Part shown: piece after piece, positions 2,748 to 63,750 of the stretch | Layout of the letters: each line of letters opens with the position of its first letter | Position numbering within the stretch: the first letter of the stretch is position 1 | NCBI RefSeq assembly: GCF_019331795.1 | Contig: NZ_JAHPZL010000004.1 | Span: 318,427 to 382,426, forward strand | Length of the DNA: 64,000 nt | DNA from: Austwickia sp. TVS 96-490-7B | GTDB lineage: Bacteria > Actinomycetota > Actinomycetes > Actinomycetales > Dermatophilaceae | Reading direction: 5' to 3' | The notes under the pieces: generated by a model | What the model was told of the DNA's origin: nothing | The model's database searches: none | Seen by the model: the letters and a program-made list of their open reading frames with translations, nothing else | Made by a program: the position numbers and the translations under genes

Positions 2748-4393
2748 AGCGTTCCTTCCGCGATGGGTCCCAGCGCGAGGGCGGGGAAGAAGGTCAGGCC
2801 AGCGACGATCACTGCGATGCTGACGAGCAGTGTGACGAAGAGCGGGGTGTGGGTCGGCAGGGTGCCTGCAGTGATGGGGCGGGCTGGCTGCTGCGCGAAG
2901 GCCCCGGCTAGGGCGAGGGCGAGCAGAATGGGCAGGAATCGACCCACTGCCATGCAGGTCGCCAGGGTCAGGTTGTACCAGGGGGTGTCAGCGGATAGCC
3001 CGGCGAAAGCGGAGCCGTTGTTGTTCGCTGCGGATGCATAGGCGTACATGATTTCGGTGAGTCCGTGGGGGCCGGCGTTGGCGGTGGCGTTGCGGGCGGT
3101 TGGCAGGAGCAGGGACGTGCCGGTGCCGAGCAGGACCAGCGCTGGCATCACCAGGATGAATAGCGCCGTGTAGGTGATTTCACGGCGGCCGACGGTTTTG
3201 CCTAAGAGTTCTGGGGTGCGGCCCACCATCAGTCCGGCGACAAACACGGTGATGACCACGATGATCAGGGCGCTGTAGAGGCCGGTGCCGACTCCACCGG
3301 GGGAGATCTCTCCGAGGAGCATGTTGGTGAGGATGATTCCTCCGCCGAGGGGGCTGAAGGAGTCGTGGGCGGAGTTCACTGCCCCAGTGGAGGTGCCGGT
3401 GGTGACGGCGGCGAAAAGGACCGATCCGGGAATCCCGAAGCGGACTTCTTTACCTTCCATCGCTGATTGTCCGGTGCTGTTGAGGGCGGTTTCTGCCCAG
3501 GTGGTGAGGGCAAGGGAGATAAGGAAGAGCGTGGACATCAGGGCGAGCAATGCTCGTCCTTGGCGGAGGTCTCCGACGAGCCGTCCGTATGTCCGGGGCA
3601 GCGCGAAGGGGATCAGCACGATGAGCAGGATTTCAACGAGGTTGGTGACGGGGTTGGGGTTTTCAAAGGGGTGTGCTGAGTTGGCGTTGAAGAATCCGCC
3701 ACCGTTGGTGCCGAGCAGTTTGATGACTTCTTGGGAAGCGACGGGGCCGCCCTGGATGGTTTGTGTCCCACCGGTGAGGGTCTGCACGGTGTGGGGCGCG
3801 TCCAGGTTTTGTATGACACCTCCCGCGATGAGGGTGATTCCTCCGATGACAGCTAACGGCAGCAGAATCCGCCAGAGCCCCCGGGTCAAGTCGACCCAGA
3901 AGTTGCCAACATTGTCGGTGTCGTGACGAGCGAGACCTCGTACGACGGCGACGGCGACGGCGAGTCCGACGGCGGCACTGATGAAGTTTTGGACAGTTAA
4001 GCCGAGCATGTCGACGAGATAGCTAGCGCCACTTTCCCCTGCATAGCTTTGCCAGTTGGTGTTGGTGACGAAGGAGACAGCAGTGTTCAGAGCAGTGTCG
4101 AGGCGCATTCCGGTGCGTCCAGCTGACCAAGGTAGCCATCCTTGGGCCAGGATGAGCAGCCACAGTCCGATGACATTGACCAGCGAGAAGGTGAGGAGCG
4201 ATAGAGCATAAACGCTCCAGCGTTGTTCGCTGTCGGGGTTGATGCGGCACATTCGATAGAGAATCGTCTCTGGTCGACGGTGCCCGCTGTCGGTGAAGCT
4301 GCGGGCGACATAGTCACCGAGGGGGATGTGCGTCAGTGCTAGAGCCATCACCACTGCAGACAGCGTCATGACGGTCGCTGCGGTGTCGTTCAT
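2744..4393 (-). CDS. kdpA: Potassium-transporting ATPase subunit A (KdpA)
   Basis: KdpA is the K+-selective channel-like subunit of KdpFABC. At 549 residues it has the usual length, about ten membrane spans and the four degenerate selectivity-filter loops: [33 protein letters not shown] loop, [15 protein letters not shown] and [13 protein letters not shown]. The frame stays open further upstream to 4477, but the start is taken at the ATG at 4393 because it overlaps the kdpF stop (TGATG arrangement) and begins the conserved N terminus MNDTAATVM. It lies between kdpF and kdpB in one operon. Confidence 0.97.
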
Positions 4394-11110: not shown

Positions 11111-11485
11111 ATGTCATTCCTCGAAGAATTCAGCAAAGTCGCCCAAAAAGCCCTGCAAGAAGCCGAGGTCGTCACCGCCAAGGCACGTCAGGCAGCAGGG
11201 GCGGCCGCCGACGCCCATCGCGACAAAATTGACGATTACATCGGCAAAGCTGGAACGTTCATCGACGAGAAGACCGAAGGGAAGTATCACCAGCAGGTCA
11301 TTAAAGCGCAGGACGTGGCAGGGAAGGGAGTCGACATCGTGGCCCAGCAGAAGTCCGCGACCATCCCGGACCGACCCGCAGCGCAGCCCAAAGATGACAG
11401 CGCCGACACCCCGCAGACCCCCCGTGACGCAGCGCCGAAAGCACCAGCTGAACCCGACCGGGAAGACGGATCTCCTACTGCCTGA
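11111..11485 (+). CDS. Rv0909/MT0933-type antitoxin-like small protein
   Basis: The 124-residue protein resembles the actinobacterial MT0933 antitoxin family: a helical, Lys/Ala/Gln-rich N-terminal half with the phrase DKIDDYIGKAGTFIDEKTEGKY and a following KAQDVAGKGVD. A disordered Pro/Asp/Ala-rich tail (about residues 85-124) follows. GAAGGAG precedes the ATG by six bases. No toxin gene lies beside it; the neighbours are a transporter and a glycosyltransferase-like gene. Many members of this family also occur without a toxin, so a role outside toxin neutralisation is quite possible. Confidence 0.65.
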   Translation: MSFLEEFSKVAQKALQEAEVVTAKARQAAGAAADAHRDKIDDYIGKAGTFIDEKTEGKYHQQVIKAQDVAGKGVDIVAQQKSATIPDRPAAQPKDDSADTPQTPRDAAPKAPAEPDREDGSPTA

Positions 11486-11833
11486 AGGGGCCTCACGTCA
11501 CGGCAGGATCGGCATCAGGGCCGCCCGCGACACGCCGACGACACACTGATCCGCCAAAAGATCCTGATCGCCGATCCTGCCACACCCGTTAACAGACGCC
11601 ACAGATGAAAAACTCCCGCTCGCAGCTCCGAAGCCACTCTTCCGGTCTCTGCCTTGACGCACAAGGAAGCCCGTCATCTTGTCTCATTCCGCAGGTGATG
11701 TATCGGACGACTGTCCTATTAGCCCGTATCATGACGGGGCGATAGCCGGTCATCGCGGTCGGTGGGGATCCCCAGTCCCGCGCGATCCGAACCGGACCCA
11801 CGACGACTGCGGGATGCTGCTGAGGTGATGCAG

Positions 11834-14770
11834 ATGGCGGGGATGCGACCCGACCGGGGAGAATCCGCCGATGCGGGCGCTCCCGACCAGCCCATGACAC
11901 GACGAGCCCGGCGCCACAACGCCGCGGAGTCAGAACCGCTCACCAGAGCTGAGCGGATGCGCCGAGAACGCATGGCCATGACCGAATCGTCCGGGGACCT
12001 CGGCGCCACCGAATCCTCATGGCCGGCTCAGGGGACGTCGTACGACTCCGGCATCTCCGGGTATGGATCGAGTTCTCCTTCCTACGGGTCGAGCAGCAGC
12101 TCTCCATACAGCTCCGGATCGCTCCCCACCAGCGGGTCCCCGTACGGCACCAGCACGTCCGACCCCACTTCGGCTGCATATCCGAGCGGCAGCAACCCGA
12201 GCAGCCCCTACAGCAGCCCCACACCCAGCACGCCGTACACACCCAGCTCCTATACCAGCCCCGCCACCACCTACCCCAGCAGCGGCAGCACTGGGAGCAC
12301 CACTGACACTGGGAGCACCACGGGCACAGGCAGCTCCTCGTACACCTCTGGGTCTACCTACGGCGCTGGCAGCGCGGATAAGAGTAGCGGCACCGGACTC
12401 AGCAGCAGCCCGAGTAGCCCCTACAGCAGCCCCACACCCAGCACGCCGTACACACCCAGCTCCTACAACAGCCCCGCCACCACCTACCCCAGCAGCGGCA
12501 GCACTGGCAGTACCACTGACACTGGGAGCACCACGGGCACTGGCAGTAGTGGCAGTTCGTCGTACAGCTCCGGATCACTGCCCACCAGCGGATCCCCGTA
12601 CGGCGCGAGCACACCCAGCACCACCCCCTCGGCGTACACCCCCAGCAGCCCCTACACCAGCCCCAGCTACAGCAGCGGAAGCTCCTCCAGTGGCATCGGC
12701 ACCTCCCCCTACTCCACGGGAAGCAGTTCCCCGTCAACACCCGCCACCACAAGCAGCCCCAGCTCCCCGCTGCCCGGCGTCGGCGGTGCGGGAAGCAGCT
12801 CACCGTACAGCTCCGGACCACTGCCCACCAGCGGATCCCCGTACGGCGCGAGCACACCCAGCACCACCCCCTCGGCGTACACCCCCAGCAGTCCCTACAC
12901 CAGCCCCAGCTACAGCAGCGGAAGCTCCTCCAGCGGCATCGGCACCTCCCCCTACTCCACGGGAAGCAGTTCCCCGTCAACACCCGCCACCACAAGCAGC
13001 CCCAGCTCCCCGCTGCCCGGCGTCGGCGGCGCGGGAAGCAGCTCCCCGTACGGCGGATACAGCCCTACACCGTCACGGAGTACGGCCGGGACCTTACCTG
13101 GAGTAGCAGGAACCCCGAGCGCCTCAACTCCGCCCGGAGGCTTCACCGCCACCCCCACTACCGGCGGGTTGCACTCCCAGGCGTTGGATCCCGGCCCGGC
13201 GGTCCCCTATAACTTGCCCACGAACACGATGCCGAAACTGAGGCGGACGTCGACAAACGCCCTGCCCACTATCGATGTCTCCCGACCAGCTGAACTCCCA
13301 GTGATCAGCGCGCCTCGTACGACGGGATTACCGGTAATCACGGTTCCCGGGGCGCCCCCGCTGCCCGTCATCGGCGCCCAGCCCACAGTGGAGATGCCAG
13401 TAGTGTCGCTACCCGCTTTTGACAAGGCGCATGGCGATCTGGATGCCCGTTCTTCCATGAACGCCCCCGTCGAAGGCAGGTCTGGGCGTCGCCGTACGGA
13501 CGACGACGCGGACGAACCATTGCGGGGCCGGTCCGAACGGTCCCGTAGTCGCCGACGGTCTGCTTTGGATCTGGATGTCGAAAACGATGAGCCAGTGGGT
13601 CGCCGGAGCAGCCGAGACCGTGACGCTAGCCGGGATCTGGAGGAGTTCGACGAGGCAGACGAGGTTGACACCACGCGCGACGGTCGCATTGCGCCATGGC
13701 ATTTAGGGCTAGCTGCGCTTTTCCTGGTCTTGCCGTGGATCATGCACGACGCGCTGTCACCAGCGGAGCAGCAAAGCTTGAAAGCTGCTCAACTCCCAGG
13801 CTTCCCCATCCGCAAGATTTCCATCACCACTGACGGCATCCTGGGCACCTACCACCTATTGCTGCATCCGCTGGTGTCGATGGTGCCGCCGATGATCGGG
13901 GCACGAGCCCTGTCAGTCCTGGGTTTTGCGGTCACCGTGAGTTTGGCCTGCCGGATCGGCAGACTCGTTGACGGGGCCAGAGGATTGGTGGTGGCCGGCG
14001 TGGTCACCATGATGAATCCGCTGCTGATTGGCGCAGCCGTGCAGGTCAAGCCATATACCTTAGCGACTGCGGTGGCCACGGCAGCCGTGCTGCGGGTGTT
14101 GCACATCGCCTTGGACCGTAAACCGGTCTCACAGTTGTGGTGGGTGACCTGGCTAGGGGCGCTAGCAGGCTATTTGCATTTCTTTGCCTTTTTGGCCCCG
14201 GTCGCAGCGGGGATGGGCATGGTGGTCCGACGACGGTCGATACGTCGACTACGGCATTCGTCGGGAATGTGGCCAGCGTTGACGGCTTTCTGCCTGATGA
14301 TGCCGGTGGGTTTGATCGCTTTAGTGCAGATCCAGCAGACCTCCGATTCGGCGCCGTTCTCGCCGATATCAGCGGTGGAAATGCTCGCAGCCGCTCTGGT
14401 CCGAGCGCCCGGGTTGAACTCGCCGCTGGGCCACGGGATTGTCTTGCTGGTCTTGTCCGCTTTCGGGCTGGGATGCCTGGTGATGATGGCGTGGTCTGCG
14501 CGCCGGTTGCGCCGCCCTGAAGAGTCCGCGGTCTTGACGATTGCAGTGTCCTGGCTGGTGCTGCCAAGCCTAGGTATCGTGGCCGCTTCAGTGCTGGTGC
14601 CGATGCTGGTGCCGGGGTATGTGACGGCGTCAGTCCCGGCGGTGGGTTTGTTAGCGGCGCTGTCGTACCGGTCGGCGCGCACCACTGGCATTGGGACCGG
14701 GCGCACTGTGGTCCTGGCCTACTTGATAGTGATGACTGTGGTGAGCTTGGCGTCGCTGGTGATCTGGTAG
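11834..14770 (+). CDS. Repeat-fused GT-C-like polytopic membrane protein
   Basis: This 978-residue protein has three parts. A short charged N terminus leads into about 400 residues of low-complexity Ser/Thr/Pro/Gly/Tyr repeats. A region with Val/Pro/Ile repeats (LPVISAPRTTGLPVITVPG) and a basic-acidic stretch (GRSERSRSRRRSALDLD) follows. The last 330 residues contain eight to ten spans resembling actinobacterial mannosyltransferase-like GT-C proteins, with TTDGILGTYHLLLHPLVSM and QVKPYTLATAVA recalling the loops LYYLLLHPW and QEARPYAL. No DD or DE catalytic pair is obvious, so transfer of a lipid-linked sugar is only inferred. I start at the ATG at 11834 because GAGGTG lies six bases upstream; the frame is open from 11762. 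A strong hairpin follows the stop. Confidence 0.75.
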   Translation: MAGMRPDRGESADAGAPDQPMTRRARRHNAAESEPLTRAERMRRERMAMTESSGDLGATESSWPAQGTSYDSGISGYGSSSPSYGSSSSSPYSSGSLPTSGSPYGTSTSDPTSAAYPSGSNPSSPYSSPTPSTPYTPSSYTSPATTYPSSGSTGSTTDTGSTTGTGSSSYTSGSTYGAGSADKSSGTGLSSSPSSPYSSPTPSTPYTPSSYNSPATTYPSSGSTGSTTDTGSTTGTGSSGSSSYSSGSLPTSGSPYGASTPSTTPSAYTPSSPYTSPSYSSGSSSSGIGTSPYSTGSSSPSTPATTSSPSSPLPGVGGAGSSSPYSSGPLPTSGSPYGASTPSTTPSAYTPSSPYTSPSYSSGSSSSGIGTSPYSTGSSSPSTPATTSSPSSPLPGVGGAGSSSPYGGYSPTPSRSTAGTLPGVAGTPSASTPPGGFTATPTTGGLHSQALDPGPAVPYNLPTNTMPKLRRTSTNALPTIDVSRPAELPVISAPRTTGLPVITVPGAPPLPVIGAQPTVEMPVVSLPAFDKAHGDLDARSSMNAPVEGRSGRRRTDDDADEPLRGRSERSRSRRRSALDLDVENDEPVGRRSSRDRDASRDLEEFDEADEVDTTRDGRIAPWHLGLAALFLVLPWIMHDALSPAEQQSLKAAQLPGFPIRKISITTDGILGTYHLLLHPLVSMVPPMIGARALSVLGFAVTVSLACRIGRLVDGARGLVVAGVVTMMNPLLIGAAVQVKPYTLATAVATAAVLRVLHIALDRKPVSQLWWVTWLGALAGYLHFFAFLAPVAAGMGMVVRRRSIRRLRHSSGMWPALTAFCLMMPVGLIALVQIQQTSDSAPFSPISAVEMLAAALVRAPGLNSPLGHGIVLLVLSAFGLGCLVMMAWSARRLRRPEESAVLTIAVSWLVLPSLGIVAASVLVPMLVPGYVTASVPAVGLLAALSYRSARTTGIGTGRTVVLAYLIVMTVVSLASLVIW
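12191..12548 (+). repeat. In-frame repeat A, two copies 213 bp apart
   Basis: Within the GT-C-like gene, 12191-12335 and 12404-12548 are nearly identical. Each encodes a Ser/Pro/Thr/Tyr segment beginning S-N/S-PSSPYSSPTPSTPY and ending in GSTTGTG. Mismatches are mostly silent or Ser/Gly changes. The 213-bp period is a whole number of codons, so gain or loss keeps the frame. Confidence 0.9.
12563..13048 (+). repeat. In-frame tandem repeat B, two 243-bp units
   Basis: Units 12563-12805 and 12806-13048 follow each other directly and differ at only a few bases. Each encodes 81 residues starting YSSG-S/P-LPTSGSPYGAS and ending SPLPGVGGAG. A partial earlier copy of the first 15 residues occurs near 12108. 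Unit length is a multiple of three. The near identity points to recent duplication or ongoing homogenisation. Confidence 0.92.
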
Positions 14771-14784
14771 TTATCGACATCACC

Positions 14785-14819
14785 AGGAGGGGGCGCCCCG
14801 CGCAGGGACGCCCCCTCCT
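14785..14819 (+). terminator. Hairpin terminator after the GT-C-like gene
   Basis: An 11-bp perfect stem (AGGAGGGGGCG / CGCCCCCTCCT) with a 13-base loop starts 14 bases after the stop codon. There is no long T tract, as is common in actinobacteria. A diverged copy of this hairpin occurs at 25869-25898. Confidence 0.8.
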
Positions 14820-14908
14820 CGCATACCCAGACCTCGTTCGTTCAGGCTGAGTAGGGCAGGATCAAGAGCTGACGTCTGCTAGCACCACCTGCCACCACCA
14901 CACCGCCG

Positions 14909-15655
14909 TCACCGACGTCCAGCCCTGTGACAGCCCCTCGTCACGTCTCTCGTGGCGGAGAAGGCGCGACCGCTCCGGGTGCAGTCGTCAAGACCAAGGT
15001 CGGCGATATTCCATTCGTAGGCCCGGATGACCGCCTGGACACGGTCACGGACGCCGAGTTTGGCAATCAGCCGAGCGAGGTGGGATTTCACCGTTGCTTC
15101 GGTGAGAAACAGGTTTTCCGCAATCTCTTTGTTGCTCATACCCCGAGTGAGGAGCTTGATGACGTCCATCTCCCGTTCGGTGATGAACCGAGCTGCGGGA
15201 GGAGGTGTGGGCCGCGTCTCCTCCCGAATCGCGCTGACTACATGGCGGACGACTTCAGGTGACAGGGTCTGCTCACCAGCGACGGCACGACGGATAGCCG
15301 CAATGATTTCTTCCGGCCGCGTGTCCTTGACCAGGTATCCCGAGGCCCCAGCACGCAGCGCAGCGACGACATAACGGTCAGTGGCGAAGGACGACAAGGT
15401 GAGGAGGCAGACGTCGGGGTGCGACTCGTGGATACGTTTCGTAGCCTCCACACCGTCCATGTACGGCATGTGCATGTCCATAAGGACCACATCTGGCTTC
15501 ACTTCGGCGACGAGTTTGGTGGCGCCCAGGCCGTCTGAAGCGGTACCTACCACTGCTAGGTCTTGGGCGGACTCCACGAAGAGTCGAAGCGCTTCAACGA
15601 CGAGCGAATCATCGTCCACGATGACGACACGGGTCAGAGTGTCAGAGGTAGGCAC
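14909..15655 (-). CDS. NarL/LuxR-family response regulator (intact copy)
   Basis: The 248-residue regulator has a receiver domain (about residues 8-125) with the acidic pocket DDDS, the phospho-acceptor Asp in VVLMDMHMPYMDG and the conserved Lys in GYLVKD. A LuxR-type HTH follows (about 155-218: FITEREMDVIKLLTRGMSNKEIAENL). It is divergent from the small ORF and histidine kinase at 15786-17188, its evident partner. Compared with the degraded second copy, which stops right after EWNIAELGLDD, this one runs 24 residues further (CTRSGRAFSATRD and beyond), probably by loss of the ancestral stop. It is likely to control the lanthipeptide genes nearby. Confidence 0.92.
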   Translation of the reverse strand: MPTSDTLTRVVIVDDDSLVVEALRLFVESAQDLAVVGTASDGLGATKLVAEVKPDVVLMDMHMPYMDGVEATKRIHESHPDVCLLTLSSFATDRYVVAALRAGASGYLVKDTRPEEIIAAIRRAVAGEQTLSPEVVRHVVSAIREETRPTPPPAARFITEREMDVIKLLTRGMSNKEIAENLFLTEATVKSHLARLIAKLGVRDRVQAVIRAYEWNIADLGLDDCTRSGRAFSATRDVTRGCHRAGRR

Positions 15656-15785
15656 ACAGGGAATGTAACGTACCTCTCACAAGCGTGACAGCAACTTCGC
15701 ATAATGGGTACAACAGCCAAATTGGACATGTGGCAAGCTGGAGACTGCCTCCCAAGCGTCTCGATCTCCATCTTGAAGGACTTGC

Positions 15786-16010
15786 ATGCACACCACGCGC
15801 CGAGCCCTCACTGTCAGCGCCTTTCCCAGCATGGGTCTCATCTCGTTCGGGGCGGCCCCCATGCACACTACTTCGCTCCTGGCGGCACCGACGGAGCACC
15901 CATTGACAGGGATCGAGGCCTCACACCAGGGCATCAACAGAGGATTAATGGCGCCACTTAATATCAAACTTTCCGCGGCTACTCCTCACATCCATCAGAT
16001 CTCTCGTTGA
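15786..16010 (+). CDS. Small secreted-type protein coupled to histidine kinase
   Basis: I do not recognise this 74-residue product. It starts MHTTRRALTVSAF, with two Arg followed by a hydrophobic stretch to about residue 24 ending in FGAAP, which looks like an export signal. The rest (about 48 residues) is polar and His/Thr/Pro-rich and has no Cys, so it is not a lanthipeptide precursor. AAGGA lies seven bases before the ATG. Its TGA overlaps the TTG start of the histidine kinase (TTGA), so kinase translation may depend on it. It could be a sensor partner or leader peptide; a chance ORF is the alternative. Confidence 0.45.
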   Translation: MHTTRRALTVSAFPSMGLISFGAAPMHTTSLLAAPTEHPLTGIEASHQGINRGLMAPLNIKLSAATPHIHQISR

Positions 16011-17188
16011 CAACGATGGCAAAAACCCTGACCATGAACCGACTCAATCCTATTGACGCTGCTTGGACTCTCCGAGTATTCCTCCTTGGGGGGGTGCTCT
16101 TGTCCTTCATCAGTGGGGCTGACGGTAGCATCGGCGATATCTGCTATAGCGCCACCACCCACGCCATCCCTGCAGTGGCAGTGTTCCGTGCGGATATCGC
16201 GAGCCTTTTGTTTATACCCCTTTTAATTATTAGCGCACCCCTCGACACAGCATTTGCGATTCTCTTGCCGCTGCTGATCCTCATGGCATTGGTCGCCAAC
16301 ACCCAGCCTCTCCGACGAGTCGCAGGCCTCGCCACTGCCGCTGTCGCATGGTTGGCAGTGGAGTTAGGTTTTGGGCAGCTTGATTTTTCCGCCAACATCA
16401 CCCCACTGTTTCTTATCTCGGTGGGAATTACACTCCAAGGCGTCCTCCTCCGTTTATCCATCCTGCAACGGCGGAAACAACAACACGAACTCGCAGAAGC
16501 GATGAAGCGCGCCGAGGCTGCCAGCGCTGGGGAACGACGACGCCTCGCCGGCGAATTACACGACATCGTCGCGCACGATCTCACCGTACTCACGATGCTC
16601 TCCACCATGGGACAGACTCTCGACGACACAGAGAAGATCAAAGATCATCTCAGCCGAATGGAATTAACGTCTCGGTCTGCCCTCGCAGATCTTCGGCGGC
16701 TGCTCGGTGCACTCGAACGCACGGAGGTACCTCCGGTCAGCCTAGGAACTTCCACCACCCGGCCCGACATCCGCGCCGTAGTGGACTCTGGCATCGAGGA
16801 ACTCACCCGCCTCAATTTTCCCACGTCACTCACATGCAGGGGAGAGCTAGATTCCATTCCACGTTCAGTCCAACACGCACTGCGGCGCAGCATTAACGAA
16901 ATGTTCGCTAACGTCACGAAGTACGCAGAGCCAGGTAGCCCTGTCGACATTGTCCTCGTCCTCACAACGGATGGAGTCACCCTGCGGATCACCAATGTCC
17001 CATCACCGATAGATCGCCGCACTGATTCCGGAGGAATGGGACTAGGCCTCAGCCACCTCCAAGAACAGGCAGAGTCGTTCAATGGCTCATTCCAGGCTGG
17101 CCTTGAGGGGCATCGATGGATATCCGAACTCTATATTCCGTTGCAACCCAACGAGACGGATGACGGCCGTCAGTCAAGTCCCCGGTAG
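16007..17188 (+). CDS. NarL-type sensor histidine kinase (intact copy)
   Basis: The 393-residue kinase has five or six N-terminal membrane spans (about residues 20-155), a HisKA_3 dimerisation domain with the phospho-acceptor His in RRLAGELHDIVAHDL (about residue 188), and a HATPase_c domain with the N box NEMFANVTKYAEPG and G box GGMGLGLSHLQEQ. It pairs with the divergent response regulator at 14909-15655. The TTG start overlaps the stop of the small upstream ORF; no ribosome site precedes it or the ATGs at 16016 and 16034, which favours coupling. A damaged paralogue lies at 24530-25517. Confidence 0.88.
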   Translation: MTTMAKTLTMNRLNPIDAAWTLRVFLLGGVLLSFISGADGSIGDICYSATTHAIPAVAVFRADIASLLFIPLLIISAPLDTAFAILLPLLILMALVANTQPLRRVAGLATAAVAWLAVELGFGQLDFSANITPLFLISVGITLQGVLLRLSILQRRKQQHELAEAMKRAEAASAGERRRLAGELHDIVAHDLTVLTMLSTMGQTLDDTEKIKDHLSRMELTSRSALADLRRLLGALERTEVPPVSLGTSTTRPDIRAVVDSGIEELTRLNFPTSLTCRGELDSIPRSVQHALRRSINEMFANVTKYAEPGSPVDIVLVLTTDGVTLRITNVPSPIDRRTDSGGMGLGLSHLQEQAESFNGSFQAGLEGHRWISELYIPLQPNETDDGRQSSPR

Positions 17189-17240
17189 TCGGGTAACGGA
17201 GAATATCGATCTCACGTCCTGACTGATCATCTCGACGAGT

Positions 17241-17333
17241 TGGAATCGGGTCCTCGCCGAACGCGACATCGTGACCTGGATCCAGAGCTGGAACCCCAAT
17301 CCGGAACCGTTCGTATGGACCAAAATCGCCGAC
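17241..17333 (+). mobile_element. IS630-family transposase, C-terminal remnant
   Basis: One frame reads WNRVLAERDIVTWIQSWNPN and continues PEPFVWTKIAD. This is the standard C terminus of IS630-type DDE transposases (pattern W-N-x-N-P-x-P-F-V-W-T-K-x-A-D). Nothing of the catalytic core remains, and homology stops where the exporter ATPase fragment begins. The remnant therefore marks an old insertion and deletion that removed the 5' part of the lanthipeptide operon. Confidence 0.75.
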
Positions 17334-17334
17334 G

Positions 17335-18147
17335 CTACGCTCGTACTCCCGCTACCTCGAAAAGCTCGAGGACATCCTCGGCACCGAGGTCGAGTCGACC
17401 AGCGGGTCGCGCACCGAGTTGGACAGCGGTGAGATACGACTCAAGAACCTGTCCTTCAGCTACGCCGGTGAGCCGCGTGCCGTGCTGGACGACATCAACA
17501 TGTCCATCGGCTCGGGTGACCTCGTCGCCGTCGTGGGCCAATCTGCTTCCGGCAAGAGCACCCTTGGCAAGGTCATCTGTGGCCTGTACGAGGCTGGTCG
17601 GGAGGCGGTCGAGATCGGTGGGCATCCCCTCGGCGACTACGACCGTGACGCCCTGCGCCGCCAGATTGGTTACGTGCCACAGGACGTCACGCTGCACAAC
17701 GGGACGATCCTCGAGAACCTCGCTATGGGCAGCGACCTCGACGAGGCCGAGATCGAACGTCGCTGCCGCCGGCTCGACTTCCTCGACTTCATCGAGCGCC
17801 TCCCCATGGGGTACCGCACGATGGTGGCCAATCTCGGAGCCAACTTCTCCGGGAGCCAGCGTCAGCGTCTCGCGATCGCCAGGGTGCTCCTGCGGTCTCC
17901 TCAGATCATCGTCTTCGGCGAGGCGACCAGCGCTCTCGATCAGCTCAACGAGCAGCGCGTCAATCGTGTCCTGCGCAGCCTGGGTTGTACGCGGATCATC
18001 ATCGCCCACCGCCTTGAGACGGTGCGCGGCGCCGACACCATCTACGTCATCGAAGACGGATGCGTCGTGGAGCAAGGCACTCACAACGGTCTTCTCGAGT
18101 CCAATGGGGTGTATTCGCTCCTCTACCGCCAGGGAGTCCCCGCATGA
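17335..18147 (+). pseudogene. LanT-type ABC exporter, ATPase-domain remnant
   Basis: The preserved part begins in the linker before the nucleotide-binding domain (SRYLEKLEDILGTEVE). It covers the whole ATPase: Walker A GQSASGKST, Q loop YVPQD, signature FSGSQRQRLAIA, Walker B IIVFGEATSALD, and switch His in IIAHRLET. LanT/NHLP-type exporters also need a membrane domain and usually an N-terminal Cys peptidase, and both are missing upstream, replaced by the IS630 tail. The Walker B Glu/Asp region reads FGEATS where FDEATS is expected, a change at the conserved Asp. The 3' end overlaps lanM (ATGA). A shortened protein could start at the TTG at 17419 but could not form an exporter alone. Confidence 0.85.
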
Positions 18148-20846
18148 CCGCCATCGGCACCCCGCTCACCCCTGTCGATGTCGACGCTGAACCCATCCGG
18201 ATCCAAACGGCGTTTGCGCCGCTGCTGGATGCGGTGACCGACCGGGTCACCGCATCCAGAGCGCCTCGGTACGTGCTGCCGGAAGGCGTCGCAGCCGGAC
18301 TGAGGGCTGTGATCCGCACCGATGTGACGATGGTGTGGATCCGCATCCTCGTCGAGGAGTTCCACCGTTTCCGAGAGGAACTCGGCCTTCCGGATTCTCC
18401 AGCGTCCACCACGGCGCTCCGCCGTTTCCACGAGGCGCTCCTCGACGGCGACTTCATTGACCGAGTGATCGGTGCCTGGCCGACCGCGGTCGGGCTCGTC
18501 GAACGCCGAGGCCGCTGGCACCGCGACGCCGCCGAGGAGATGTGGGCGGCGTGGCTTGCCGACCGGGACCGGCTCGTCGCCGCGGGCATGGTCTCCGCCG
18601 ATTTCGAGCCGGTCGCCGCACGGTTCGGTGCGGGCGACAGCCACCACCAGGCTCGCACCGTCATTATCCTCACCGGGGCCGACGACTCGAGGATCGTCTT
18701 CAAGCCCCGCGCCCCCGAGACGGACCTCATGCTCGTCGACCTGTTGGACCTGCTCGGGCGAACGTTCGGCGTGGACATGAGCCGGTGCGCCCCCCGTTCC
18801 CTGGCGGGAACGCAAGGGTGCTGGCAGGAGTTCATCGCCTCTCACGAACCGGTGAACCCCCAGGAGGTGCACGACTACTTCCTGCGGTTCGGCCTGCTCG
18901 CAGGTCTCTCTGGCGCCATCGGCGCCGGAGACCTGCACCACGAGAACGTCATCCTGCGTGGTGCATACCCGTGTGTCGTCGACAGCGAGACCATCCTCCA
19001 GGCACGTTTCATGCCACTCGATGGACGCCTCGCCAGCAGGATGCTGAACGCCGCGCAACGCTGCCCCGGGGCGACACTCATGTTGCCCGCCCGGGTCCGC
19101 AGGGGTGCGTTCGACATCTTCATCAGCGCCCTCGGAGTACCGTGGGTGCAGGTCTCCGATAAGGAGACCTTCGACATCGTCGACGACGGTACGGACGCAG
19201 TGCGCCTGGGCCGGATCAAGATCACCATGGAACTCGACGGCAACGTCGTCCGCCTCGGCGGTGAGCGGGTCGACCACCTCGACCACCTGGACACCGTAAT
19301 CGAGGGGTACCTGCTCGCGCAGGCGACGCTCACCGAGCACCTCGACGAGTACGTCGCCGCCCTCGAGTCGGCGCGCAACGCCCTCTTCCGCATCGTCCTG
19401 CGCCCCACACAGGTGTATGGCACCTTCGTCGACGCGTCCGTGCATCCTTCGGCGCTCGCGGATTCCGTCGAGAGGCGGCGTGTGCTGGGGCTTCTGAAGG
19501 ACGTCGATTACAACGACGAGGGACGCATCGGTGCACGTGAGCGCGCCGACCTGGAGGTTCTCGACATTCCCGCGTTCCACTGCTTCGGCGGCTCCACGCG
19601 CCTCGTTAGCGGGGGACAGGAGTTGTCGGGGGACTACTTCGTGCTCTCACCGGTTGACTCCGCTCTGCGCAGCCTGCATGAGTTCTGCGAACGCCCTGCG
19701 GCGTATCACCGGTTCCAGCTCGAGACGTCCTTGAACGAGTTGGCTGCCGGTCAGGACCGCCCCTATCCCTTCGCGATGTTGCGGTCCGCGTTCGTCGCGG
19801 GGCCACAGGCGACAATCGATCAGGTCTTCCACGTTCTCGACGCCGCCGGGGAGCGCGGCATGAACGAGCAAGGCGTCGAGGCGATCTCCTGGCTCTCGCA
19901 CCTCGGCCACGACGGCCTGGAGACCTACGAGATCGACCAGACCATGACCTTCCACGACACCGACGGCATCGCGGCCATGTTGTCGACGCGACATCCTGGA
20001 ACGGCTCTCGCCGCACAGTCCCTGGCGGCGCTAAGCCTCGTCCAGGTGCCTACAGGGACGACCCGGTGCTCGGTGCTCGCCGGCCCGGCGAGCACTCTCT
20101 TCATTCGTGGACGGGCCGTGCTCCCAGCACCCCCTGAGGCGCCCACGGAATCCACCGAACTCGACCTCATGGTCGGAACGGCAGGACTTCTCCTCGCCGC
20201 GGCACGGATGGCCGAGCCCGATCTCGCCTGGATTGCACGGGCTCGTGACCACCTCACCACCTGGACGCCCCAATGTGCCTGGAAGCGGCCCTGGTCGGAC
20301 CTCGCACACGGAATGATCGGGGTGGAATGGGCTCGATTCCGAGCCGCCCACACTCTCGGTGAAGACACCGGGCGCCTCGCAGCGGGACTGATCGCGGGGC
20401 TCGAGCACGCTGTGGAGGACTCGATGTACGGCGCAGCCTGGTGCTCCGGCGCTGCCGGGGGCCTCGTCGTCCTCGCGGACCTGCACGAGTCCGGACACGA
20501 CGTGCCCGCAGACTTGACCCGACGCCTGACCCGACGAGTCGCCACCGGCGGCCCCGGCGTCGTCGATGTCTCGGTCTGCCACGGCGTCGCCGGTCGGATC
20601 CAGGCGCTGCTGCGTGCAGAAGAGGGCCGGCTCATCACCGACGGCCGCGAACGTGCCCAAGAGCTGTGGCGCCGCTCGGCCGAAACAGCCCGCACAGAAG
20701 GAATCCAGACCGGTGCTCCGGGCCGGACGGCTATCCTCGAGTACTTCCTCGGCTGGGCGGGCGTCGCCGACACCGCCCACCGACTCCTCCACGGGGCAGG
20801 CCTTTTCGACGCCGTCTCCCTGATTCCACCGACGAAGGAGATCTGA
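18144..20846 (+). CDS. lanM: Class II lanthipeptide synthetase LanM
   Basis: LanM enzymes dehydrate Ser/Thr in a precursor peptide and then close thioether rings. The 900-residue protein has the dehydratase (DUF4135) half with [17 protein letters not shown] and the kinase-like [10 protein letters not shown] motif (near residue 264). Its LanC-like cyclase half keeps all three zinc ligands: Cys767 in AWCSGAAG and Cys812-His813 in SVCHGVAG. Length is typical and no stop or frameshift is seen. The start is the ATG at 18144, overlapping the exporter stop by four bases, although the frame is open from 18060. The gene looks functional while its precursor gene and exporter membrane part are gone, so it may be recently orphaned or act on a precursor encoded elsewhere. 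Confidence 0.94.
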
Positions 20847-20847
20847 C

Positions 20848-21726
20848 ATGGCCATCACCATCGACCACGTGTCGCTCGACTACGGCGAGTTCGCACTCAA
20901 GGACGTCACTTTTGACGTGCAACCCGGAGAGGTCGTCGGCTTTCTCGGCCCGAACGGTTCGGGTAAGTCCACCACATTGCGAGTCCTGCTCGGCCTCGAA
21001 CGCCCAGACAGCGGAACGGTCCTGATCGCCGGCCAGAGGTAACAGGACATCGGTCGTCCACTGCGGGTCATCGGTTCCCTCATCGACACCAATTGGATCA
21101 ACGGATCCCAGCGCACCCAGGACTATCTGTCGTGGCTAGCGGCGTCCAACGACCTCGACAAGGCCCGCATCCCGGAGCTGCTCGAACGCGTCGGCCTTGC
21201 CCACGTCCACAAGCGCAAGGTGTCGAAGCTCTCCCTTGGGATGCGGCAACGCCTGGGTATCGCGGCAGCGTTGCTCGGCGACCCGGCCTACCTGGTGTTC
21301 GACGAGCCGCTGAACGGGCTCGATCCTGAGGGCATCCGATGGGTGCGTAGGCTCCTCGGCGAGCTCCGCGACGACGGGCGGGCCATCCTGCTCTCTAGCC
21401 ACATCCTCGCCGAGGTCGCCGAGGTCGCCGACCGGGTCGCGATGATCTCCGACGGCGCCATCGTCGGATACGGCAGTCTCCCCGAGTTCGAGGGCGGCAT
21501 TGGCCTGGTCGCCGTAGTTTCTGATCCCGACCGGGCCGTCGCGGTCCTCATCGAGAAGGGGTACGAGGCCACGCACACAGGCACCCCCGAGGTCCTCGTC
21601 TCCGGGGACGCTCACGGGGGCGACGTGGCCCGGGCTCTCGTCGAGGCCGACATCACCTTCGAATCCATCGCCAAACGCGAGGGCGACCTTGAGAACGCCT
21701 TCTTCTCCCGCCTCGTCAAGAAGTGA
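20848..21726 (+). pseudogene. LanF-type immunity ABC ATPase with one nonsense codon
   Basis: The frame reads as a complete 292-codon ABC ATPase except for TAA at codon 65 (21040-21042). Before it come [15 protein letters not shown] and Walker [10 protein letters not shown]. After it, in the same frame, come QDIGRPLRVIGSLIDTNW, the signature LSLGMRQRLGIAAALL, Walker B YLVFDEPLNGLDP and the switch-region LSSHILAEV. The family usually has Tyr or a similar residue at the stop position, so a single substitution explains it. AAGGAG precedes the ATG and lanM ends one base before it. With the LanE/LanG-like permeases it would form a self-protection exporter. A sequencing error or readthrough cannot be excluded. 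Confidence 0.88.
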
Positions 21727-22487
21727 CCGGCATGCGCACTCTGCGCACAGAGCTGCGGAAAGTCGTCGCCTACCGGCTGCCGCTGTTCGTAGCCGTCGGC
21801 GCCCTGCTGCTCGTGGGGCTGTGGGACGTCACGATCCTGGCTCGGGGCCAGTCCGGCCTCAGGGCGATGGATTCCTCCCTCGCGTTCAGCGGGATCGTGC
21901 TTCCCACGGCGTGGTTCATCATCCCCATGCTCCTCGTCGGAGCCGACACCTGCGAGGGCACGTTGTGGCCCGCGCTGCACTCCCGGCCCGGAACCACTCG
22001 TGTGCTGATGGGCAAGGCGGTGGCCGCCGTGGTCGTCGCCGTCGTTACGGCCCTCCTGGCCGCGCTCATGCTTGCCGGGCTGACTCTCGTCACGTCCCAC
22101 GGAGCCCCCACCGTGGAGGTGCTTCCCGCCGTGATCGGACGTTTGCTCATCCAGGCCATGTTGTGCACAGTGATCGCCTTCTCGATCTACGTCCTCACCG
22201 GTTATCAGGGCGCATCGTGGATCATCCTCGGCCTCCTGGTGTGGATCCACTTTGTCGAACGGGTACTCTCCTCGGCGCTACCGGGCAACGCAGGAATGCT
22301 CGGGATGCCGTTCCGCCTCGTTGACTTCTGGATCCGCGGCAAGTGGAGCGCGACCATGCCTCAACTCGAGATGTTCGGCTTCGGCCCACTGGCCGTGTAC
22401 ACCGCCGCGCTCGCCGCGCTGGCGGCCGGCTCCTTCATCTTCTTCTCCGACAGCTCCGGGCGCACCTGGGGCAGAAAGCGCTGGTGA
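21723..22487 (+). CDS. LanE-type ABC transporter permease
   Basis: The 254-residue protein has six hydrophobic segments (about residues 18-38, 50-75, 95-125, 135-165, 170-190 and 215-240), the ABC-2-like permease layout of lantibiotic immunity subunits LanE/LanG. It starts MTGMRTLRTELRKVVAYRLP, the usual amphipathic helix before the first span. The GTG at 21723 overlaps the stop of the ATPase (GTGA); the ATG at 21732 is the alternative. It should work with the broken ATPase upstream and the permease downstream to export the lanthipeptide. Without an ATPase its function is doubtful unless readthrough occurs. Confidence 0.85.
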   Translation: MTGMRTLRTELRKVVAYRLPLFVAVGALLLVGLWDVTILARGQSGLRAMDSSLAFSGIVLPTAWFIIPMLLVGADTCEGTLWPALHSRPGTTRVLMGKAVAAVVVAVVTALLAALMLAGLTLVTSHGAPTVEVLPAVIGRLLIQAMLCTVIAFSIYVLTGYQGASWIILGLLVWIHFVERVLSSALPGNAGMLGMPFRLVDFWIRGKWSATMPQLEMFGFGPLAVYTAALAALAAGSFIFFSDSSGRTWGRKRW

Positions 22488-22491
22488 ACCC

Positions 22492-23334
22492 ATGTCCTTC
22501 ACCCTCGCGGACGGCCGCGGCGCCGACCGGTCGCCCACGGTCGAGAGCACACCGTGGGCGACCACGCTCCGCTGGATGCGCACCCTGGTCGTCAAGAACG
22601 GTCTTGCACCCATCCTTCTGCGCAGCGTCCTCGTTCCGATGCTGCTGTCCTTCGCCGGTGCCCTGTTCATGATGCTCGGGCCGGTGCCGATCCGGCCTGA
22701 CGCTGCAGGTGGTATCCCCGACCGCGACGTCGTGTTCCTCTTCCTCGGCTACATGCTCCTCGGCCAACTGGTGGTGATCGTATCCGGCGCGTGGCTACAC
22801 CTCCGGGATGTCCTCTCCCGGTCTCTGGGCGGCATCTACACCGCCGTCCCGGATCGTCGGGCCGTGACGCTCGGCACCGCCCTCGTGGCCGCCGTCGTCG
22901 GCGCACTGGGTGCGCTGGCGAGTGTTCTCACCGGCGTGGTGACGTTTATGGTCGTCGCAGGGGGCGATCTCGCCGCCACGATGAGTTCACCGCGAGTCAT
23001 GCAGATGCTACTCGGCCTCCCGTTCGGCGCCGCGATGCTCTCCGTCATCGCCGTCGCTGTCGCGGTGCTCGTGCGTCAGCCCATTGCAGCGGCCTGCCTC
23101 CTCGTCATCTGGGCCACCTACGGTGAAGACGCCGTCGGTCTCATCCCCGGTGTCGGCCCGGTGGTGAAGCTGCTGCTTCCGATCACCAACGGTCAGGCAG
23201 TCGCAGGCGCCCCGGGTGTCCAGGGCATCTCGGGTTCTTCCCTCGTTGCGGGACTGTGGATGGCGGTCCTCGCGGCGATCTCCGTCGTCGTCGCCGTCGT
23301 CGTCGAGCGCCGCCGCCGAGGCTGGGTCTCCTGA
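22492..23334 (+). CDS. LanG-type ABC transporter permease
   Basis: The 280-residue protein has six predicted spans after a polar N terminus of about 35 residues. The coupling-helix region is LRDVLSRSLGGIYTAVPDRR, and it ends in an Arg-rich tail (VVVERRRRGW). It follows the LanE-like gene by four bases, so the start is the ATG at 22492; the long open frame from 22252 is a shadow. Together with the preceding genes it forms the LanFEG immunity set. A perfect hairpin at 23361-23390 ends this operon. Confidence 0.84.
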   Translation: MSFTLADGRGADRSPTVESTPWATTLRWMRTLVVKNGLAPILLRSVLVPMLLSFAGALFMMLGPVPIRPDAAGGIPDRDVVFLFLGYMLLGQLVVIVSGAWLHLRDVLSRSLGGIYTAVPDRRAVTLGTALVAAVVGALGALASVLTGVVTFMVVAGGDLAATMSSPRVMQMLLGLPFGAAMLSVIAVAVAVLVRQPIAAACLLVIWATYGEDAVGLIPGVGPVVKLLLPITNGQAVAGAPGVQGISGSSLVAGLWMAVLAAISVVVAVVVERRRRGWVS

Positions 23335-23360
23335 CGACTCAGCCTCGGTTCTTGGAGCCC

Positions 23361-23390
23361 GTCGCCGCGCATCTCCGGGTGCGCGGCGAC
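23361..23390 (+). terminator. Hairpin terminator after the lanM-lanFEG operon
   Basis: A perfect 11-bp GC-rich stem (GTCGCCGCGCA / TGCGCGGCGAC) with an 8-base loop lies 27 bases after the last permease stop and before the GPP34 gene. Confidence 0.75.
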
Positions 23391-23471
23391 GCCACGGGGG
23401 CGGACCGTATCGCCTATGGGGCCATCCGATGGGATGAACCGCCAGCGGAAACGAGTACCTAAGCTGGCCCC

Positions 23472-24101
23472 ATGTTGATCTGCGAAGACGTCATGATCCT
23501 TCTCGCCGAACCACGCGGGATGATCGAGAACTGGGATGCGCGGCGACAGTGGAGTCTCACGGCCGGAGCCCTGTGTGACCTCGAAGAGCTCGGCGCCATC
23601 GCAATTGAAGGCAAGCAGGTGCGGGTGCTCTCCGAGCAGGCCACCGGTCACGCGGCCCTTGAGACAATCCTCACGCGCATCGTCGACCGACGCGATCGCA
23701 AGCTCCCCTCGATCCTGCGCGATTCCGCGGCGTGTCCGCTGGAGGACATCATCGAGGGGCTCTCCGCCCGAGGCGTCCTGGAATTGAAGAGCAAGAGCCG
23801 CTTCGGCCTGTTGCCGAGCCGATACACGGTAACCGACTCGACCGTGGAGAACAACTTGCGTGCCGCCATGACCAACACTCTCCACGGGCGTGGCAATCGG
23901 CACCATCTCAGCGTGCTCGCCATCATCAACAGCGTCGAGGTGGTCCACCAGGCACTCAAACACGAGGCCGCTGGCGTCAAGGACCGTGAGATCTCCGCCT
24001 TGCTCGAGGATGTCAAGGACTCCTCGACGATGATGTCGGCGCTGCGGTCCTCCACTCGTGGCATCGGCAGCGCCCTCCCCGCCATCGCCGGGGGCATGTG
24101 A
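23472..24101 (+). CDS. GPP34-family (Golgi phosphoprotein 3-like) protein
   Basis: The 209-residue protein fits the bacterial GPP34 family: an N terminus of the form M-L-I-x-E-D (MLICEDVMILLAE), the block WSLTAGALCDLEELGAIAIEG, and the later LPSRYTV and RHHLSVLAII-like helices. GPP34 proteins bind phosphoinositides in eukaryotes; the actinobacterial members are largely uncharacterised. It stands alone after the lanFEG terminator, with its own promoter probably in 23391-23471, and converges on the degraded response regulator. A role linked to lanthipeptide production or membrane protection is inferred from position only. Confidence 0.8.
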   Translation: MLICEDVMILLAEPRGMIENWDARRQWSLTAGALCDLEELGAIAIEGKQVRVLSEQATGHAALETILTRIVDRRDRKLPSILRDSAACPLEDIIEGLSARGVLELKSKSRFGLLPSRYTVTDSTVENNLRAAMTNTLHGRGNRHHLSVLAIINSVEVVHQALKHEAAGVKDREISALLEDVKDSSTMMSALRSSTRGIGSALPAIAGGM

Positions 24102-24143
24102 CCGCCGCGACCGGGCCGCGACTCGCGCACGCAAAGAAGGCAC

Positions 24144-24178
24144 CACGGTCACGTCCGTCCCCCACGGACGTGACCGTG
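24144..24178. terminator. Bidirectional hairpin between GPP34 gene and regulator remnant
   Basis: A perfect 15-bp stem (CACGGTCACGTCCGT / ACGGACGTGACCGTG) with a 5-base C loop sits between two converging genes and could end transcripts from both sides. Confidence 0.85.
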
Positions 24179-24203
24179 CGGAGGCGCCGCGCACTCTCGC
24201 GGA

Positions 24204-24518
24204 TCAGTCGTCGAGACCTAGCTCGGCGATGTTCCACTCGTGAGCGCGGATGATCGCCTGAACGCGGTCTCGCACGCCGAGCTTCGCGATGAGACGAGCA
24301 AGGTATGACTTCACCGTCGCCTCGGTGAGACCTAGAGCGTCCGCGGTCTCACGGTTGCTCATGCCGCGCCCGAGTAGCTTGATGACGTCCATCTCCCGCC
24401 CGGTGATGAACCGCGCCGCCATGGGCGGGGCCGACCGCTTGTCCTCGCGGATCGCATCGACCACGTGAGCGATCACCCCGGGTGACAACGTTTGCTCGAC
24501 CATGACAGTGCGGCGGAC
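24204..24518 (-). pseudogene. NarL-type response regulator, DNA-binding half only
   Basis: The sequence matches the C-terminal half of the intact regulator at 14909-15655: EQTLSPGVIAHVVDAIREDK, then FITGREMDVIKLLGRGMSN and the rest of the LuxR HTH. Homology ends at VRRTV near 24518, so the whole receiver domain with the phospho-acceptor Asp is missing. The open frame continues to 24677 only by running antisense through kinase sequence. It abuts the kinase remnant head to head, with no promoter left. Confidence 0.88.
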
Positions 24519-24529
24519 ATCGCCAGCGC

Positions 24530-25517
24530 CCTCTCTCCCACTTCTGGCCTTCAGCGCCGTAGGGGAGGCAGCGTTGGGAAGTCTCTTATCGCTGCTGATC
24601 CTCATGGCGCTCGTCGCGAACACACAACCCCTCAAATGGGTCATCGCGCTCGCGGTCGCATCCGTGGCATGGGGCACGGTGGCGTCGGCCTACGGTGTGT
24701 TCCGTCTCGACGGCGGCATTGCCGCACTGCTGCCGATCCTGGCGGGCGTCGTGTTACAGGGGGCCGTCTTGCGGTCGTCGCTCTTGCCACGCCGACTGGA
24801 GCGGAACGAACTCGCGGCTGCGGTCACCCGTGCCGAAACGGCCAGAGCAGCAGAGCGGCGGCGCCTCGCCGGTGAACTTCACGACATCGTCGCGCACGAC
24901 CTCACTATCCTGACGATGCTTTCTGCCACCGGGCAGAATCTCGACGACTCCGGAAGGTACAAACCACGTTCGCCCGCATGGTATCGACATCCCGGTCGGC
25001 CTTCCCCAAACTCTGCCAGCTCCTCGACGTGCTCGAACGAACGGAGGCACCTCCGGTCAGTGTGAGCGCCTCCACCACCCGCCCCGACGTCGGAGCGGCG
25101 CTGACCAGCGGCATCGAAGAACTCACGCGACTCGGATTCTCTCCGTCCCTCACATAGTTGGATGTGGTCCCCCGATCCGTGCAACACGGGCTGCGTCGAA
25201 GCATCAGCGGAATGCTCGCCAACGCCGCGAAATATGCAGAGCCCGGCACGCCCGTCGACATCGATCTCGCTCTCACCGCCGATGAGGTCGCCCTCCGAGT
25301 CGTCAACACGTCGTCGTCGACGGGTCAGATTCACGGACCAGAGAGAATAGGGCTTGGCCTGAACAACCTTCAGGAGCAGGCGGAGTGTTTCAACGGGACC
25401 TTCCACGCGGAACTCCGGCAGCATCGATGGGTCTCCGAACTGCGCGTCCCGTTGCAACCTCACGCGGCAGAAGCCGTCCGCAACCTTTCCACCTGGCCCG
25501 CCGAACAGATGTCATAG
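24530..25517 (+). pseudogene. NarL-type sensor histidine kinase, degraded second copy
   Basis: This is a paralogue of the kinase at 16007-17188. Homology starts mid-membrane domain (LLILMALVANTQPL in both), so about 80 N-terminal residues are lost. The His box LAGELHDIVAHDL is intact. Shortly after GQNLDD (near 24955) the frame shifts, continuing as FARMVSTSRSAF, and a TAG at 25155-25157 interrupts the linker before the ATPase domain. The last part (PRSVQHGLRRSISGMLANAA, IGLGLNNLQEQ) is readable to the stop at 25515-25517. Three independent lesions make function very unlikely. Confidence 0.9.
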
Positions 25518-25548
25518 CGAAACGAGCCCCATAGGGACACCCCCCGAC

Positions 25549-25722
25549 ACCGCCTGCCGCAACCAGCTCATCAACACCTGCCGCGCACCCGTCGAATGCG
25601 CCAACGCCCTGCTGAAATCCTCCTTCAAGGCCCTACGCCGCATCACCTTATGCCCCTGGAGAATCGGACACATCACCACCGTCGCCCTCATACTTTTAAC
25701 CACCAACGGCGGCTGCTGGTGA
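25549..25722 (+). mobile_element. IS5-family transposase, C-terminal remnant
   Basis: One frame reads ECANALLKSSFKALRR and ITLCPWRIGHITTVALILL, the typical C terminus of actinobacterial IS5-group DDE transposases (NALLKTTFKALRRVSLCPWRIG). Only about 58 codons remain, ending at TGA 25720-25722. It lies just after the dead kinase copy, at the right edge of the lanthipeptide island. Confidence 0.75.
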
Positions 25723-25784
25723 GAAAACCTCTCTCGGCGATGCCTTTCACTGAGCCAGCTATCAGACTAGACCGCATCTTTCTA

Positions 25785-25859
25785 AATCAGGGAACCAGAT
25801 GGGTCATTGTCCTGACCTATCTGTCTGTGATGATTTCGCTGTCCCAACTGATCCGCTAG
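25785..25859 (+). pseudogene. 3' remnant of a second GT-C-like gene
   Basis: The last codons read GTRWVIVLTYLSVMISLSQL and stop at 25857-25859. They match the last span of the GT-C-like protein ending at 14770 (GTGRTVVLAYLIVMTVVSLA), and the downstream hairpin is also similar. It therefore looks like the surviving 3' tip of a duplicate of that gene, cut off by the island to its left. The match is short (about 22 residues), so this is likely rather than certain. Confidence 0.55.
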
Positions 25860-25868
25860 ACCGTACGT

Positions 25869-25898
25869 GAGGGGGCGCCCCACTGGAGCATCCCCCTC
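25869..25898. terminator. Hairpin terminator between GT-C remnant and ohyA
   Basis: A 7-bp stem (GAGGGGG / CCCCCTC) sits nine bases before the end of the leftward ohyA gene. It shares GAGGGGGCGCCCC with the terminator at 14785-14819, in keeping with a duplicated gene end. Confidence 0.65.
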
Positions 25899-25906
25899 TC
25901 GCACCC

Positions 25907-58491: not shown

Positions 58492-58500
58492 GAATGTTTG

Positions 58501-58618
58501 TCCGGCGGCGTCCTACTCTCCCACACCGTCTCCAGTGCAGTACCATTGGCGCTGAAAGGCTTAGCTTCCGGGTTCGGAATGAGACCGGGCGTTTCCCTTT
58601 CGCTATGACCGCCGTAAC
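58501..58618 (-). rRNA. rrf: 5S ribosomal RNA
   Basis: The minus strand reads GTTACGGCGGTCATAGCGA at the 5' end, CCCGGTCTCATTCCGAACCC in the middle and GAGAGTAGGACGCCGCCGGA at the 3' end, the standard actinobacterial 5S sequence, about 118 bases. Ends are placed by comparison with known 5S and may be off by one or two bases. Confidence 0.95.
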
Positions 58619-58695
58619 GTTGTCGTACTTATCAACAGTCCTCACACTGTTTTGACAGGGTGTGAGGGTTCCCGTGGGTGTTGATGTTCCGGGAA

Positions 58696-58725
58696 CTATA
58701 CAGTGGACGCGAGGATCTTTATGTG
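58696..58725 (-). other. 23S processing stem, 3' strand
   Basis: CACATAAAGATCCTCGCGTC on the minus strand, continuing CACTGTATAG, can pair with the segment before the 23S 5' end (61833-61858), forming the precursor stalk cut by RNase III. Confidence 0.75.
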
Positions 58726-58727
58726 TC

Positions 58728-63750
<5,023 letters not shown>

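Follow-up and report, generated by a model that had tools for sequence, protein, structure and literature searches.

Why should a lantibiotic synthetase gene stay whole when the genes around it are broken? This question is raised by a 64,000-nucleotide stretch of the draft genome of Austwickia sp. TVS 96-490-7B (contig NZ_JAHPZL010000004.1, positions 318,427 to 382,426; G000:C35:318427-382426), which is called the window here. A sequence-only reading had described positions 14771-25900 of it as a decaying class II lanthipeptide island in which LanM is intact and a precursor gene is missing, and our domain assignments, the lesions we located and our precursor searches bore this out. We consider it very probable that the island descends from an operon of lacticin 3147 type that lost lanA1, lanM1 and the first part of lanT by deletion, and that its LanM, a LanM2, is likely whole only because the damage is recent.

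The LanM gene (18144..20846, forward strand) is whole and encodes 900 amino acids, with a DUF4135 domain (PF13575, 215 bits; cut-off 29) and a LANC_like domain (PF05147, 57.5 bits; cut-off 23.2). Residues K187, D263, H265, N268 and D280, which we take to be of kinase type, and C767, C812 and H813, presumably the Cys-Cys-His zinc ligands, all stand at invariant columns of a six-row alignment. On that assumption the kinase-like motif and the three zinc ligands are kept, as had been claimed. By sequence comparison, this LanM is LanM2, the second synthetase of lacticin 3147-type two-peptide operons, whose order is A1-A2-M1-T-M2. It scored 238 and 203 bits against the M2 enzymes of the Streptomyces NBC_01431 plasmid and of Lactococcus pMRC01, but just 53 and 40 bits against the M1 enzymes of the same two plasmids. 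A 60-row tree, which was made by a quick method with a midpoint root and has some long branches, placed it in a 30-row clade of M2 enzymes and close relatives with a support of 100, and a separate M1 clade contains the lanM1 remnant of Austwickia chelonae LK16-18 (G002). Its position also fits the order of these operons in that it directly adjoins lanT, the stop of the lanT remnant overlapping its start. The best solved-structure match was LicM2 (PDB 6st5, E 9.8e-35), yet the two are distant in sequence; lichenicidin is described in PMC3951391 as a two-component lantibiotic with two LanMs. The nearest protein relative of the enzyme is an A. chelonae protein, and LanM proteins with at least 69% identity to it were found in only two of the 186 genomes of our family search, namely the window genome (G000) and G002. 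The window genome carries one LanM.

A scan of the contigs of our genome collection gave no relative when the query was the window LanM by itself, and a LanM alignment was used instead. Among the 24 loci found in this way, 19 had the full A1-A2-M1-T-M2 order. The other five were L032, L025, L036, L038 and L039; L025 has M2 without T, and L032 shows A2-M1-T-M2 on a contig that starts just before A2. The full order was also present in both of the plasmids that we inspected out of the 15 matching the G002 lanA1, and in both L087 (same family) and L088, which were chosen as the best LanM scores outside the genus and are the two family or order matches whose wider stretches were inspected. In L017, L018 and L035, T and M2 form a single open frame of 1678-1683 residues. 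PMC3951391 describes clusters with two LanMs and two precursors from Streptomyces, among them one with LanT and LanM fused (about 1600 residues), and PMC1858699 reports that lacticin 3147 is modified by LtnM1 and LtnM2. The lacticin 3147 operon on pMRC01 (L056) has the A1-A2-M1-T-M2 order, an M2 that is orthologous to the window LanM (23% identity over the match given above) and an A1 that resembles the G002 lanA1. In contrast, the window has no A1, A2 or M1, and its LanT is cut to the ATP-binding part; after M2, pMRC01 has a reductase gene where the window has lanF-E-G. The plasmid of Streptomyces sp. NBC_01431 (L055) has the same order and gave the best plasmid matches of both the window LanM (31% identity) and the G002 lanA1 (57%), but its cluster is complete and is followed by a flavin-dependent oxidoreductase gene that the window does not have.

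The exporter had been said to have lost its membrane and peptidase parts. Indeed, ABC_tran is the sole transporter domain left in the lanT remnant (17419..18147, forward strand): the ATP-binding domain is kept, while the C39 peptidase and membrane parts are gone. How they were lost can be read from G002, where a locus at about 141760-151660 of C1 is colinear with the window from lanT to lanG at 78% DNA identity and has the same transposase tail upstream. A single blastn match against L014 of this genome joins window 17348-23337 to L014 13392-19390 (78% identity). The transposase tail of the window (17258..17349, forward strand), which we take to be of IS630 type, lies between the kinase gene of pair 1 and lanT, on the left side of the junction, and is 78% identical to L014 9761-9851, 5' of lanA1 in G002. 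No Pfam match was found for the window tail, and in the G002 element that carries its counterpart one frame scored 24.7 bits against DDE_3, under the cut-off of 28.6. As the upstream match stops at 17349 and the lanT match starts at 17348, the deletion junction lies at 17347..17350. Between L014 9851 and 13392, G002 has lanA1, the lanM1 remnant and the first ~443 of 709 lanT codons. We infer from this comparison with the sister genome a history of a single deletion at 17349, which would have fused the IS630-type tail to lanT and taken lanA1, lanM1 and the peptidase and membrane parts of lanT. The ancestral locus would then have been of the two-peptide, two-LanM kind, with LanM2 as its sole surviving synthetase.

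The G002 lanA1 matches the plantaricin C family (NF000539, 34.5 bits; cut-off 29). Its core stops early, and the frame continues out of step into a headless lanM1, so that lanA1 is joined out of frame to a lanM1 without the kinase-like part. G002 further differs from the window in its uninterrupted lanT and lanF, in a lanM2 split over two frames, and in the chromosomal site of the locus. The comparison with related strains that had been proposed as a way to find an intact version thus yielded a lanA1 and a full lanT, but in a locus which is itself damaged elsewhere.

Of the parts of a functional two-peptide cluster, the precursors, LanM1 and a full LanT were all missing from the window. Searched with profiles of 21 alpha and 22 beta precursor sequences, all from outside Austwickia, its six frames gave no precursor (best E 3.4 for alpha and 0.44 for beta), in agreement with the claim that no lanA is visible. 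The best beta match is in another frame and overlaps the kinase gene. The alpha profile recovered the G002 alpha precursor at 1.6e-16 as a positive control. The suggested search of the whole window genome also found no precursor, the best E values being 0.143 with an alignment of 12 alpha precursors and 0.363 with one of 13 beta precursors; the G002 match of 5e-21 in the alpha search is no independent control, as the G002 row is inside that alignment. None of the four Austwickia genomes gave a beta-precursor match, and the beta search is thus without a positive control within the genus. Neither a lanM1 match nor a C39 domain match was found in the window genome. A hidden intact cluster elsewhere in this genome was therefore rejected, since it has one LanM, no M1 and no C39 match. 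These results suggest that lanA2 has been lost as well, although the window genome may hold elsewhere a precursor unlike the known ones.

The immunity genes follow LanM. The lanF ATPase gene (20848..21726, forward strand) does have the nonsense codon that the sequence-only reading noticed, a TAA at 21040-21042 that interrupts an otherwise open frame. The portion 3' of this stop scored 133.4 bits against galliderm_ABC (TIGR03740), under the full-length cut-off of 309.75, and the lanF orthologues of G002 and of G001, another genome with the locus, are uninterrupted. The lanE-like permease gene (21723..22487, forward strand; 78% identity to G002 and 52% to G001) and the lanG-like permease gene (22492..23334, forward strand; 66% and 57%) both have open frames, and neither product matched Pfam or NCBIfam. 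The LanFEG exporter is thus incomplete in the window, with both permeases open and a stop in LanF. The lanE protein was found in three of the 186 genomes, namely G000, G001 and G002.

Judged from these gene contents, LanM2 would lack both a substrate and an exporter, which suggests that no lantibiotic is now made. As neither precursor nor exporter was found and the immunity ATPase is broken, the island most likely does nothing now. Given the overlap of its start with the lanT stop, LanM may still be translated if a transcript reads through, and LanM2, if expressed, is predicted to be still active on a beta-type precursor, dehydrating and cyclising it.

It could be argued that part of this damage is an artefact of assembly or sequencing and that the true strain has a whole cluster. 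The assembly consists of 58 contigs, and the lanF stop is a single codon within an otherwise open frame. However, the junction is internal to a contig of 382 kb, no lanA, lanM1 or C39 domain was found across the whole assembly, and the lanT remnant is changed at motif residues, as real decay predicts. Moreover, G002 is independently broken, and its genome was obtained by PacBio sequencing with Illumina correction at ~368-fold (PMC6256576). We consider an artefact highly improbable, the least probable of the readings weighed here.

The sequence-only reading was right that LanM is intact but found this unexplained; a simple answer is likely, namely that the lesions are recent, by a rough estimate. 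With an outgroup as reference, we assigned amino-acid changes to the window branch or to the G002 branch; the count is limited to sites at which the outgroup agrees, and this makes the test weaker. The window-only and G002-only changes were 8 and 6 in the lanT part, 10 and 13 in lanF (two pieces summed), 14 and 14 in lanE, and 25 and 25 in lanG. For the main piece of LanM they were 34 and 33, or 28 and 42 (p 0.12), depending on the outgroup, and for its front piece 7 and 8, or 10 and 5. No gene compared showed a significant difference in rate between the window and G002. Had lanT and lanF evolved freely over one tenth of the branch, they should have gained ~33 additional non-synonymous changes, and no excess was seen. 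For a release lasting one fiftieth of the branch, the expected number of stops in an unselected LanM is below one. The lesions look recent because the broken genes of the window show no excess change, and if they are recent, an intact LanM is to be expected and needs no special function. It is therefore likely that LanM is whole only because the damage is recent. Pairwise ratios of non-synonymous to synonymous change (dN/dS, 0.14-0.35) were set aside, since they mostly reflect the time before the damage.

A different explanation would be that LanM2 is kept by selection, with an unrecognised precursor encoded elsewhere or another role, and with export by a transporter of non-C39 type. This would agree with a whole LanM in which all the presumed catalytic and zinc residues are present, and with a window-only change at just one of 58 invariant columns (two more are common to G002, and other rows have 0 to 2). 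The LanM end branch is also short, 0.13 vs 0.24 for the split G002 enzyme in its database version, which starts with some residues from another reading frame, and in the comparison of 28 vs 42 changes LanM changed less than the G002 copy. However, with the other outgroup the window LanM has the same rate as the frameshifted G002 copy, clear selection on LanM was not seen by relative rates, and neither a precursor of A1 or A2 type nor a C39 domain was found in the window genome. Selection is, in our judgement, very unlikely.

One locus of our collection is in keeping with such selection. In Streptomyces noursei (L025 9432-12553), a complete LanM2 stands behind a short open reading frame whose product has a leader of beta type and ends in a two-Cys part, and no lanM1, lanT or lanA1 match was found around it in the stretch inspected. 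That LanM2 outlives its operon as a free-standing enzyme, released from its old partners and acting on a different, unrecognised small peptide, here as in S. noursei, seems to us very unlikely.

Several points weigh against a recently broken operon remnant moved between sites. LanM scored 294.9 bits against NCBIfam TIGR03897, narrowly under the cut-off of 304. The lanT remnant has window-only changes at four of 60 otherwise invariant columns, while G002-only changes number 0 and the other 24 rows have 0 or 1 each; three of the four fall in what we take to be the Walker A, signature and Walker B motifs, each at an otherwise invariant residue. Set against the single such change in LanM, this implies that LanT may have been free for longer than LanM, and it hints, with small numbers, that LanM was constrained for longer than LanT. 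The estimate of recency is rough, with rates assumed by us. Both the nonsense codon and the junction are known from the assembly alone, and the movement between sites discussed below is deduced solely from the patchy presence of the locus and its differing positions on the chromosome. A recently damaged operon remnant of lacticin 3147 type nevertheless remains our strongly favoured reading.

In G001 (C25, L054), orthologues of lanF-E-G follow a C-terminal stub of LanM2 of 98 residues, as in the window they follow LanM; but lanF is whole, and no further lan gene was found in 15 kb around the locus. A truncated arrangement shared among relatives, which would have spoken against decay, was not seen, as the two relatives are broken in different places. 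In the three genomes with the locus (window, G001 and G002) the damage thus lies at a different place in each, and this different, partly complementary breakage points to repeated, independent loss of the cluster, as far as can be judged from the sequences.

From left to right, the island consists of a response regulator gene (reverse strand), a histidine kinase gene (forward strand), the IS630-type tail, the ATP-binding part of lanT, LanM, lanF, lanE, lanG, a GPP34 gene, a second regulator pair and another transposase tail. The NarL-type response regulator of pair 1 (14909..15655, reverse strand; Response_reg and GerE domains) and its histidine kinase (16007..17188, forward strand; HisKA_3) have open frames. 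In the four genomes of the genus, the sole near copy of this kinase is that of pair 2, at 57% identity, and the next matches are much weaker. Pair 2 is a diverged copy of pair 1, with DNA identities of 73.5% over 325 bases, 69% over 689 and 78% over 65, and lacks most of the sequence between these segments. The claim that one of two regulator pairs is destroyed holds for pair 2: its response-regulator remnant (24204..24503, reverse strand) has GerE without a receiver and so only the DNA-binding part, and its histidine-kinase remnant (24532..25478, forward strand) has lost its front and is in two frames with one TAG. The regulator of pair 1 extends 24 codons beyond the end point of the pair 2 copy into unrelated sequence, perhaps by a rearrangement near the left edge of the island. 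The GPP34-domain protein gene (23472..24101, forward strand; PF05719, 85 bits) follows lanG as in G002, where the match ends at codon 68 beside an element, presumably of the IS3 family, that is also present left of the locus. Transposase tails had been placed at both sides of the island. One, of DDE_Tnp_4 type, is at its edge (25558..25719, forward strand; PF13359, 20.3 bits, under the cut-off of 24.8), but the IS630-type tail is inside it.

The genes that flank the region, which by their sequence would encode an oleate hydratase and a dicarboxylate symporter, have counterparts ~1.9 kb apart in G001 and ~1.1 kb apart in G002, and no LanM, lanE or lanG match was found between them in either genome. 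In G002 these counterparts are at 3.47 Mb, while the lan locus is at 0.14 Mb. We infer that the locus moved between sites by transfer or transposition, as the positions of these sequences would suggest. In the window, two extra genes (11111-11485 and 11762-14770) separate the symporter gene from the island, and the difference at this site is thus not confined to the lan genes. The second encodes a Ser/Pro-rich membrane protein without a Pfam match, and the Ser/Pro/Gly-rich front half of this gene has long imperfect direct repeats at 12095-13054. By eye, the codons at 25796-25859, the last ones on the right side of the island, look like this gene's final stretch at 14700-14770, and the island thus sits between two versions of its tail. 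Near the contig end there is an rRNA operon (58500-63749), which may explain why the assembly breaks at that point. A promoter scan was uninformative, with one site vs 1.4 expected by chance.

Some other loci of the collection had features of their own. L088 (G390) has an extra LanM at 13982-16998, with an A1-like frame just upstream, beside its complete A1-A2-M1-T-M2 set. In L007 (G114, same family), a beta-precursor-like frame (3902-4171; E 2.2e-5 in a small search set) lies upstream of LanM on the same strand, and in Streptococcus henryi (L033 4429-4644) a beta-precursor match has a stop within its leader part.

The class II two-peptide lantibiotic operon is a kind already known, and the interest here is that three genomes have it broken differently. 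In a thin search of the open-access literature, none of the papers listed linked Austwickia with lantibiotics in its title or abstract opening, and the name is absent from PMC3951391 and PMC10027976. Finding a whole LanM when genomes are scanned does not mean that a lantibiotic is produced. G001 and G002 keep lanF while their synthetases are broken or lost, whereas the window keeps a synthetase while its lanF is broken, and the three differently broken loci form a natural series for how lantibiotic clusters die.

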